Of a stretch of 64,000 nt of DNA, positions 14,072 through 63,185 are shown piece after piece. Position numbers and translations under genes: made by a program. The notes beneath the pieces were generated by a model. That model searched no databases and was not told where the DNA came from. It worked only from the letters and a program-made list of their open reading frames with translations. The number at the start of each line of letters is the position of its first letter. Position 1 is the stretch's first letter. The DNA is from a virus: positions 108,577-172,576 of IMG/VR virus record IMGVR_UViG_3300008117_008517; one strand, 5' to 3'.

Positions 14072-14082
14072 TTAATATATAA
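14072..14082 (+). promoter_or_regulatory. Candidate late promoter TTAATATATAA, 3 nt before ATG
   Basis: TTAATATATAA ends three bases before the ATG at 14086. The same box recurs before many genes here. A -10-type element this close would put the transcription start at or just after the start codon. Confidence 0.5.
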
Positions 14083-19003: not shown

Positions 19004-19065
19004 AAAATTTTAAAAATTTTGAAAAAAATCCACAAAGGATTATTTTATGTATATATACTAATACT

Positions 19066-25583: not shown

Positions 25584-25594
25584 TTAATATATAA
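25584..25594 (+). promoter_or_regulatory. Candidate late promoter TTAATATATAA, 4 nt before ATG
   Basis: An exact TTAATATATAA ends four bases before the ATG at 25599, the same spacing class as at 14086 and 60542. Confidence 0.5.
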
Positions 25595-26222: not shown

Positions 26223-26288
26223 AAATAGAAAAAAATTGGTTTTTTCTTTTAATATATAAAACATAAAATAAAAAATAATTAAAAAAAT

Positions 26289-44956: not shown

Positions 44957-44965
44957 TTATATATA
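44957..44965 (+). promoter_or_regulatory. Candidate late promoter box, 5 nt before ATG
   Basis: tttatatata followed by ctaac directly before the ATG at 44971, in the divergent gap between the clamp loader and sheath-stabiliser-like genes. Confidence 0.42.
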
Positions 44966-45987: not shown

Positions 45988-46051
45988 AAAAGAAAAAAAA
46001 GAGTTTTTAATTGTAATATATAGTTTATATAAAAAATAAAATACAAAAAGT

Positions 46052-47384: not shown

Positions 47385-47555
47385 ATTTTCAAAACTTTTA
47401 GACTTAAAATTATATAAAATTTGTAAATAGCTTCTAAGAGAAAATCTCTTCAAAATAGCTAAAATTAATTTTAAATGAGGCGTTAAATAAAATTTATTTA
47501 ATTTTATTAGAAAAAAAAATTAAAAGCCATTTACTTAAATAATAAAGATCTCTAT

Positions 47556-47894
47556 GTGGAGATGATCGTCTCAAAAGCTCAGGGTAGACTTACTAGAAAA
47601 GCTGAAAAAATGTTGGAAATATTAGCCAAAGAAACTATTAAAAAAATGCGTTATTGGTCTAATGATGATAAAAATGATTGTTATCAATCTGGTCTTTTAG
47701 ATATGTTCCAGAATTGGTATAATTTTAATGAAGAAAAATCAGTTAATGCTTTTGCTTATTTTACTGAAGTATTTAAAAGAGGAATCGCCAAGGGATTTAA
47801 CGAAATCTACAAAAAGAAGGGAGATAACGAAAATTTAATCAAATTGATATCTATTGAGGGATCAAATGACGGACAGGGTCTACATTCCTTGTAA
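47556..47894 (+). CDS. Late transcription sigma factor, gp55-like (short)
   Basis: 112 residues from GTG 47556; the ATG at 47562 is an equally good start. The segment YWSNDDKNDCYQSGLLDMF, then YNFNEEKSVNAFAYFTEVFK and a basic helix ending IYKKKGD match the sigma region 2 core of T4 gp55 (Asn-Phe-Asp ... N-x-x-A-Y-x-T-x ... I-K-K-E). gp55 directs host RNA polymerase to TATA-box-like late promoters. The protein is shorter than T4 gp55 (185 residues) and ends GLHSL, without the acidic-hydrophobic tail that binds the sliding clamp. A homing endonuclease begins 35 bp downstream. Confidence 0.75.
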   Translation: MEMIVSKAQGRLTRKAEKMLEILAKETIKKMRYWSNDDKNDCYQSGLLDMFQNWYNFNEEKSVNAFAYFTEVFKRGIAKGFNEIYKKKGDNENLIKLISIEGSNDGQGLHSL

Positions 47895-47913: not shown

Positions 47914-47924
47914 TATAATATATA
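47914..47924 (+). promoter_or_regulatory. Candidate late promoter TATAATATATA, 5 nt before ATG
   Basis: TATAATATATA followed by catac and the ATG of the homing endonuclease at 47930. Confidence 0.45.
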
Positions 47925-50061: not shown

Positions 50062-50132
50062 GGTAAAATTTATTGATTTACTGATATATATAAATTTTTT
50101 AAAACATTTTAAGTCTTAGATGTATAAAAATT

Positions 50133-54150: not shown

Positions 54151-54219
54151 TAATATATAATCGAAACTACTTAGAAGCAGTTTTAATTAATATATATTTC
54201 AAAATTTTTAAAATTTTTA

Positions 54220-56277: not shown

Positions 56278-56431
56278 AAAAAACCTCTAATTTTAAAGAT
56301 ATATATACAATTATATACACTCCCTTGAGTATCTTCTCCTTACTTTGTTGGATAACCTCCTATAAAAAATCCACCTTTATAATTTTTAGAATTTTCAAGT
56401 CGATATATAATAAAAATAAAAGATAAATTTC

Positions 56432-60528: not shown

Positions 60529-60538
60529 TAATATATAC
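60529..60538 (+). promoter_or_regulatory. Candidate late promoter box, 3 nt before ATG
   Basis: ATAATATATA followed by ctt/c and the ATG at 60542; the start of the NFACT-R, peptidase and small-protein unit. Confidence 0.48.
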
Positions 60539-60541
60539 TTC

Positions 60542-60931
60542 ATGATAAAAAATTATCAACTTTTCTTAGAATCAAAAAAAGATAAGTTTCCTAATATTAA
60601 AACCGTCAAAGTAGGTGATTTCACAGTTTTGATTGGTAAAGATTCTAAATCAAATGACTATTTAACAACTATTAAGTCACAAGACGAAGATATTTGGTTT
60701 CATGCAAAAGGCGTTCCTGGAAGTCATGTTGTGATTAAAAGTAGAGAAAGTTTGCCAACTCCAGAAATTATTGAAGAAGTTGCTAGAATTGCTGCGAAAA
60801 ACTCAAAGTCTACTGGTAAGACAAAAGTAGTTTATTGCAAGATTAAGTTTGTAAATAAAACCAGTGATATGAAAGAAGGTCAAGTTTCGGTAGATTACAA
60901 CAATGCAGATGAAATCGAAGTTGAAATTTAA
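60542..60931 (+). CDS. NFACT-R (RqcH-type) RNA-binding domain protein
   Basis: 129 residues. Residues about 23-118 form a full NFACT-R domain (DUF814): VLIGKDSKSNDYLTT (29-43), DEDIWFHAKGVPGSHVVIK (48-66), an A-R-I-A-A-K-N-S-K helix and a final G-x-V-x-V strand. In RqcH/Rqc2 and Tae2 proteins this domain accompanies the large NFACT-N part and binds the stalled 50S-nascent chain complex for C-terminal tailing; here only the R domain is present. The first ten residues (MIKNYQLFLE) resemble a capsid-targeting peptide, so the protein may be packaged. It begins a unit that runs toward the tmRNA. Confidence 0.85.
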   Translation: MIKNYQLFLESKKDKFPNIKTVKVGDFTVLIGKDSKSNDYLTTIKSQDEDIWFHAKGVPGSHVVIKSRESLPTPEIIEEVARIAAKNSKSTGKTKVVYCKIKFVNKTSDMKEGQVSVDYNNADEIEVEI

Positions 60932-60958
60932 TATATAATAAAATTAAGAACAATTTAA

Positions 60959-62760: not shown

Positions 62761-62791
62761 TTGACATTTAATATATAACTCACTATATTTG
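62761..62791 (+). promoter_or_regulatory. tmRNA promoter: host-type TTG-N20-TAnnTTTG plus embedded late box
   Basis: TTG at 62761 is followed after 20 bp by TATATTTG (62784-62791), an exact fit to the Bacteroidota housekeeping -33/-7 pattern; read as sigma-70 it is TTGACA-N17-TATATT. A TTAATATATAA late-type box (62768-62778) lies inside the spacer, so both programmes could drive the tmRNA. Confidence 0.65.
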
Positions 62792-62808: not shown

Positions 62809-63185
62809 GGGGATGAACTTGAATTGATTCGCAGGGTAAAGATGATTAAGCAGGCATCGGTTTGGTAAAGTCCGATTAAAATAAATTATCAAAACAAGTA
62901 AACGGCAACGTTTCTAACGAAGTAGGAACCAGTGAAGATTTAGTAGCTGCTCTACAAAACAACTTGCTCACTGTGAATGAGCTTGAAGTAGCCTAATCTT
63001 AGGATACATTCTAAAAATTCACACTGAATCACAACAGTATAAATAGTGATAGTTTTTTGTTAGAGTGTTTTTGAGTCGAAACAACTAAATATTTTGTAAG
63101 TTAAAGAAAGAACTTTCTAAGCTTGTGAACGATTAAGCATTTCTAACTGAGGAAGACCCCGTAGCGAAAACGGGCATCTCCACCA
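62809..63185 (+). ncRNA. ssrA: tmRNA (transfer-messenger RNA)
   Basis: 377 nt. The 5' end ggggatgaacttgaattg and attcgcaggg follow the tmRNA start pattern. ggggatg (62809-62815) pairs with catctcc (63175-63181) as a 7-bp acceptor stem with one G-U, followed by A and encoded CCA (63183-63185). A 5-bp T-arm (cccgt/acggg) closes the loop agcgaaa, which departs from the usual TTCGAAT-type loop. Between them lies a long mRNA-like and pseudoknot region. tmRNA rescues ribosomes stalled on broken mRNA and adds a degradation tag. A terminator follows at 63219. Phage-borne tmRNAs are known in large phages; SmpB would come from the host or another part of the genome. Confidence 0.85.
62904..62996 (+). 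other. Predicted tmRNA tag reading frame (30 codons)
   Basis: After aagtaaac, the context of Bacteroidota resume codons, the frame ggc aac gtt tct runs 30 codons to taa at 62994-62996. The tag would start GNVSNEV and end NELEVA. Most tags are 8-15 residues ending LAA. An internal D-L-V-A-A (codons 12-16) resembles a usual tag end without its stop. The resume codon is inferred. Confidence 0.55.

Follow-up and report, generated by a model that had tools for sequence, protein, structure and literature searches.

Does a small protein resembling the late sigma factor gp55 of phage T4 read an AT-rich box that recurs upstream of genes on the same viral DNA? Both lie in a 64,000-nt stretch (hereafter the window), corresponding to bases 108577-172576 of an IMG/VR virus record of 172,576 bases (G000), which is probably a fragment of a huge-phage genome. 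The portal protein of the window shares 80% identity with that of LR756502 (642 kb), 74% with LR745206, 56% with LR756504 and 50% with LR756501, and at most 36% with those of LR756500, PAU, Lak and Tenacibaculum phages. The portal and prohead-protease genes were assigned by matches to PHROG_213 and PHROG_207, respectively, and the tail-sheath gene (26289) by PHROG_34521 (E 5e-90). Features of the window are listed in Table 1.

Table 1. Box sites, sigma factor gene and tmRNA-like gene of the window
Feature	Position	Strand	Remarks
ATATATA box	14075..14081	+	4 nt before ATG 14086, predicted leaderless; M1 score 11.0
ATATATA box	25587..25593	+	5 nt before ATG 25599, predicted leaderless; M1 10.9
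ATATATA box	26252..26258	+	30 nt before tail-sheath gene 26289; M1 11.7
ATATATA box	44959..44965	+	5 nt before sheath-stabilizer gene 44971, predicted leaderless; M1 11.5
ATATATA box	46016..46022	+	29 nt before ATG 46052; M1 7.9; orthologues keep about 26-31 nt
gp55-type late sigma factor, sigma region 2 only	47529..47894	+	probable start ATT 47529; called GTG 47556 internal
ATATATA box	47918..47924	+	5 nt before ATG 47930, predicted leaderless; M1 10.4
ATATATA box	54153..54159	+	upstream of portal gene 54220; M1 11.1
ATATATA box	56403..56409	+	22 nt before prohead-protease gene 56432; M1 7.3
ATATATA box	60531..60537	+	4 nt before ATG 60542, predicted leaderless; M1 7.7
ATATATA box	60931..60937	+	21 nt before ATG 60959; M1 11.2
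ATATATA box, then TATATTTG (sigma-A -7-like) element	62771..62777	+	before tmRNA-like gene; by sequence
Divergent tmRNA-like gene, encoded CCA	62809..63185	+	Rfam tmRNA model 1-374, 28 bits, E 1.5e-9

A single box, probably a promoter, recurs upstream of genes

De novo motif discovery by EM on 114 upstream regions of G000 yielded the motif TTTAATATATA. Runs from several seeds, some of them unrelated, all reached tttaATATATAana, with an LL of 174 compared to a maximum of 64.5 among 20 shuffled control sets. The resulting PWM matches 62% of the G000 upstream regions, compared to 3-6% of shuffled and 0% of mid-gene sequences. On the held-out genome of LR756502 it matches 45% of upstream regions (shuffled 9-11%, mid-gene 1%, convergent regions 4%), and on those of LR756501, LR756500 and LR756504 it matches 55%, 38% and 31%, respectively, against about 5-11% after shuffling. 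Within the window, a PWM trained outside it found a box in 25 of the 37 intergenic upstream regions, compared to 3.4 ± 1.7 (maximum 9) in 200 dinucleotide-preserving shuffles, and 29 genes have a match at most 150 nt upstream. The core ATATATA occurs at 7.25 per kb in non-coding and 0.13 per kb in coding DNA, a 55-fold bias, compared to about 2-10-fold for the other AT-only 7-mers tested. The literal TTAATATATAA, with seven exact copies in the window and 19 at one mismatch against 11.8 expected, is weakly enriched; the actual motif is TTTAATATATA.

The mild window-wide excess of TTAATATATAA is what an artefact of AT-rich intergenic DNA might produce, but such an artefact is contradicted by the dinucleotide-preserving shuffles, the held-out genomes, the far stronger non-coding bias of ATATATA than of other AT 7-mers and the conserved position of the box among orthologues, and we give it a negligible probability. 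The original observation of a recurrent box before at least 15 genes is confirmed: all the positions it cited are box-like, although the one at 62768 precedes the tmRNA-like gene rather than a called protein gene. The motif discovery against shuffled sequence that it proposed separates the box clearly from the control, and the outcome it named as contrary, a box no commoner than in shuffled DNA or inside genes, is not what either comparison gives.

The box is rare (4-9%) before co-directional genes separated by a gap of less than 10 nt and common before longer gaps, which fits the starts of transcription units. Aligned sites have a single box without a strong -35 element, and only weak A/purine preferences upstream. 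The box is very probably a phage-specific promoter. It is present upstream of portal orthologues (33 of 36 distinct upstream regions, mostly 16-25 nt from the ATG) and prohead-protease orthologues (20 of 26); the portal gene of the window has a second box-like site at about 54190-54196, and ATG 47930 opens a 518-aa ORF downstream of gp55. In the window itself, the genes of gp55 and MCP have no scoring box in their vicinity. Near-palindromic boxes are shared by the divergent gene pairs 44315/44971 (44959-44965), 18503/19066 (19051-19057) and 49453/50133 (50086-50092). In the first pair, the clamp-loader gene 44935-44315 is 22 nt away from the box, at an M1 score of 9.8. Such boxes between divergent genes may work in both directions.

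Box-led genes and a second, sigma-A-like motif

In the window the box precedes virion (late) genes, namely those of the sheath, sheath stabilizer, portal, protease, and spanin- and endolysin-like proteins, and the sampled box-led genes of LR756502 include those of portal, protease, decoration, baseplate and adaptor proteins. It also precedes genes of RNR, topoisomerase II, clamp loader and PhoH. The designation as a "late" promoter is supported in part: virion genes carry the box, but nucleotide and replication genes carry it too, and by gene content it is not strictly late.

Another motif of LR756502, distinct from the box, is TATATTTGTA, the Bacteroidota sigma-A -7 element TAnnTTTG (PMC7366714, PMC9723704). 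TAnnTTTG was also found in pT24, MA9V-1 and Lak-A1. In LR756502, the sampled first genes behind it include those for nicotinamide phosphoribosyltransferase, PRPP synthetase, RNase H and RNA ligase, and none of the sampled genes belongs to a virion family. The presence of TAnnTTTG in these phages suggests a Bacteroidota host.

The box and a sigma-A -7-like element both stand upstream of the tmRNA-like gene, in the window as well as before its copy in LR756502. The score of this gene is below the Rfam gathering score of 47, yet the match spans the model end to end, and the gene is conserved in relatives. ARAGORN, run on the window, did not call it.

The window encodes a gp55-type sigma factor

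Searched against PHROG, the ORF called at 47556 hit PHROG_234 ("late sigma transcription factor") with an E-value of 1.2e-7, and hhalign aligned it to T4 gp55 with E 2e-6 and a probability of 89.5%. The AlphaFold2 model, computed with 27 relatives as input (pLDDT 81.7), consists of four helices followed by a disordered tail. A Foldseek search of the PDB returned T4 gp55 (7d7c_F) as the top hit, with a TMq of 0.75; comparison of the two gave a Z of 13.1 and an rmsd of 1.9 over 104 aa with 21% identity, the next sigma factor having a Z of 9.9. A direct phmmer search against PDB sequences gave no meaningful match, whereas the fold search did find gp55. Pfam assigns only a weak Sigma70_r2 match to the protein of ~121 aa, which lacks sigma region 4. 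The ORF encodes a sigma factor of the T4 gp55 type, and the region-2 signature first noticed in this small ORF is borne out by both the profile and the fold. With the window gp55 as query, tblastn gave 88-89% for LR756502 and LR745206, 55% for LR756504, 46% for LR756501 and LR756500, 38-40% for Lak, and 31-37% for pT24, PAU and MA9V-1; altogether, gp55 relatives are encoded in 271 viral-contig stretches.

The residues N13, L54, R57, F86, H95, Y97 and T99 line the base pockets of T4 gp55 (PMC7892883). At the positions resolved in the alignment (all except L54 and R57), the window protein keeps N13, F86, Y97 and T99 and has Phe in place of H95. In gp55 of the LR756501 type, N13 is replaced by Asp and T99 by Ser.

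The gp55 frame is open 5' of the called GTG, and the profile match starts upstream of that codon. Most relatives begin with an ATG at MYLNNKDL, with which an ATT at 47529 is aligned in the window, and there is no in-frame ATG, GTG or TTG upstream of this ATT. The true start lies 5' of the called GTG, probably at the ATT, which would give the ~121 aa. Among distinct upstream regions that lack an upstream start, the gp55 start codon is ATG in 42, ATT in 19, ATC in six and TTG in two. In the window and in the loci L009, L014, L032, L033, L051, L075, L241 and L254, ATT or ATC replaces the ATG of relatives without any upstream ATG, GTG or TTG. In two of these loci (L033 and L051), the ATT/ATC start is overlapped by an upstream ORF similar to the C-terminus of a homing endonuclease. 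The recurrent ATT/ATC start may possibly reflect translational control of the late sigma factor.

Leaders of gp55 genes carry a box-like TATAACATGAAA in 51 of 95 distinct upstream regions, located 38-82 nt and mostly 47-60 nt before the start, which suggests that gp55 activates its own gene. In many of these leaders, for example L012:9917-9982, TATAACATGAAA precedes a variable hairpin and AAAAAATAA. These leaders are possibly structured; RNAalifold found no base pairs common to them, and individual hairpins appear plausible by eye.

Two classes of box-to-ATG spacing

For 403 box-led genes in five genomes, spacing was taken as the distance between the final A of ATATATA and the ATG. It is bimodal, at 4-8 nt or 17-32 nt, with almost no sites between these classes or below 4 nt (one at 3 nt and two at -1). 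Single distances of 4, 5, 6, 7 and 8 nt are represented by 74, 48, 21, 14 and 9 genes, respectively; 167 genes fall at 3-8 nt, 16 at 9-16 nt and 104 at 17-24 nt. Independent loci gave 90/7/162 and 50/11/108 for the 4-8, 9-16 and 17-32 nt classes. Counted without a gene caller, the codon in the 4-8 nt class is ATG in 133 cases, GTG in six and TTG in none. Non-box AT 7-mers show no void at 9-16 nt. The near and far classes have identical core and flanks, and sites of the far class show an enrichment of A 5-7 nt past the box, which is where the AUG falls in the near class. Of 41 distinct upstream regions of sheath-stabilizer orthologues, 30 have the exact spacing of 5 nt, with differing flanks. 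TAnnTTTG likewise peaks 3-5 nt before the ATG; in Flavobacterium it occupies positions -12 to -5 relative to the transcription start (PMC9723704).

The RNA would start probably about 5 nt past the last A of the box. Since the A of the AUG would then be at the predicted +1 in ~40% of the box-led genes (167 of 403), their mRNAs are predicted to be leaderless. For most of the remaining box-led genes, the 5' leaders would be A-rich and about 13-27 nt long. The predicted fraction compares with about 4-13% in known Bacteroidota, where 3.7% of 5' UTRs are shorter than 10 nt (PMC7366714), 5.5% are leaderless or near-leaderless (PMC9723704), and 13% of leaders in F. johnsoniae are at most 10 nt long (PMC6847099). 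Leaderless genes with an adjacent -10 box are known from Actinobacteria and Deinococcus-Thermus (PMC3160421, PMC12340547). There, too, the position of the promoter box, about 10-12 nt ahead of the start codon, implies a +1 at the AUG, but the box is that of the house-keeping sigma factor, whereas here it is phage-specific and belongs to a probable Bacteroidota phage. The bimodal spacing and the predicted leaderless class are new here.

The box might be a true gp55 promoter and the near class nevertheless not leaderless, with the transcription start elsewhere or the real start codons downstream, because the ATG calls are computational and the start positions predicted. We consider this improbable in view of the hard lower limit of 4 nt, the near-exclusive use of ATG and the exact spacing kept by orthologues. 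Even less probable is a translation-initiation or mRNA element in place of a promoter. In its favour, translation in Bacteroidota does without SD sequences and relies on Kozak-like signals (PMC6847099), and many boxes lie 4-8 nt from an AUG. Against it, one and the same extended box is found at two distances separated by a void (9-16 nt), genes inside tight operons hardly ever have it in front of them, and the tmRNA-like gene is preceded by it. The sigma-A motif, which is independent of the box, is spaced in the same way.

Comparison with T4-type late promoters

The T4 consensus TATAAATA occurs in 6.1% of upstream regions of this genome compared to 5.3% after shuffling, and in 12.7% compared to 1.4% in T4 itself, so that simple enrichment detects the known case. 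The expectation of a single-box promoter differing from the T4 consensus is upheld. Compared to TATAAATA (T-13 A-12 T-11 A-10 A-9 A-8 T-7 A-6), the box reads (A/T)ATATATA; the two are identical at six of eight positions, the sole consistent change, A to T, affects position -9, and the box shows an additional upstream preference for TTT. Both promoters consist of a single -10-like box without a -35 element before virion genes, and both systems have a factor with sigma region 2 only, the same fold and most of the base-pocket residues that the alignment resolves. In contrast, the window protein is much shorter, has another C-terminal tail and comes without a detected gp45. Moreover, TATAAATA sites upstream of T4 genes are at least 13 nt from the ATG, whereas many boxes here are only 4-8 nt away.

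According to PMC2988020, the late promoters of KVP40, 44RR and S-PM2 have in silico consensus sequences near that of T4 with small clade-specific changes, those of Aeh1 have a/gC at -13/-12, and a cyanophage late box is reported as highly similar to that of T4. The box described here is likewise a near-T4 consensus with a small base change, located at -9 rather than at -13/-12 as in Aeh1; its predicted leaderless geometry is not described for these T4 relatives in the text consulted. Replacement of H95, which contacts base -9 in T4, was considered as the cause of the change and rejected: aligned cyanophage gp55s also have Phe at this position, so we claim no structural cause.

The motif is present in four huge-phage clades, represented by LR756502, LR756504, LR756501 and LR756500, and in IMG/VR relatives. 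In upstream regions of pT24, PTm1, MA9V-1, PAU and Lak-A1 it stays at the shuffled level, and in T4 it is also at background. A divergent late consensus had been proposed for Bacteroidota T4-like phages in general; the divergence from T4 holds, but the assignment is too broad, as the motif is at background in these five. A motif search for the late box of pT24, PAU, MA9V-1 and PTm1 gave no clear answer.

Which factor may read the box

We propose that TTTAATATATA is the counterpart of the T4 late box and, with a probability of about 0.72, that the gp55-type sigma factor recognises it while bound to the RNA polymerase core of the host. By homology with T4, gp55 would take the place of the host sigma factor on the core polymerase and recognise the box in single-stranded form, beginning at -12. 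Host sigma-A promoters (TAnnTTTG) appear to serve the early genes. No cellular-type RNA polymerase beta subunit was found in these phages. LR756502 and several relatives encode other sigma factors, and recognition by gp55 is thus inferred from the box architecture and homology.

A second, ECF-type sigma factor, or an alternative sigma factor of the host, might read the box instead. LR756502 encodes a 199-aa ECF-type sigma factor (363663-364262, L118:3663-4262) with region 2 (E 3e-15) and region 4 (E 1e-8), and further proteins with sigma region 2 are encoded by LR745206, LR756504, LR756501, LR756500, Lak-A1 and MA9V-1. ECF promoters normally need a -35 element. The aligned sites have none, the box is close to that of T4, gp55 is encoded in every motif-bearing genome tested, and Lak-A1 and MA9V-1 have such sigma factors yet lack the motif. 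Since these two phages also have gp55, the presence of a sigma factor alone does not decide, and we regard a second sigma factor as an unlikely reader, although the least unlikely of the alternatives to gp55.

Searches with Pfam PF02916 and PF09116 for the gp45 clamp matched T4 only and none of these phages, in which clamp-loader genes are present. At the C-terminus, the place of the sliding-clamp-binding motif in the T4 gp55 family, gp55 has a different conserved tail (hydrophobic-H/Y-S/N/T-hydrophobic). A clamp-binding tail common to gp55 and DNA polymerase was considered and rejected, as it was not found in DNA polymerase. In LR756500, near 231550-233587 (L093), a 537-aa ORF adjoining gp55 shares its NAEIYSI tail. 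In addition, the family B DNA polymerase is seemingly split into two ORFs (G000:92793-93089), with counterparts in pT24, PAU, MA9V-1 and LR756502.

Implications for huge phages

Taken as a whole, this clade of huge Bacteroidota phages might run a largely leaderless gp55-type late programme, with the box fused to the start codon at a fixed spacing in ~40% of box-led genes and with gp55 self-activated in many members and often started at AUU or AUC; we hold the odds of this full picture to be even. The megaphage paper predicted no host with confidence (PMC9723777), and TAnnTTTG in the 642-kb LR756502 is independent evidence of a Bacteroidota host. The box gives a testable definition of late promoters for phages that have the largest known genomes and are known from metagenomes alone, and it aids the annotation of both gene starts and transcription units in huge phages. 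The leaderless messages, if true, would represent an unusual mode of late-gene expression in a phylum without Shine-Dalgarno initiation.
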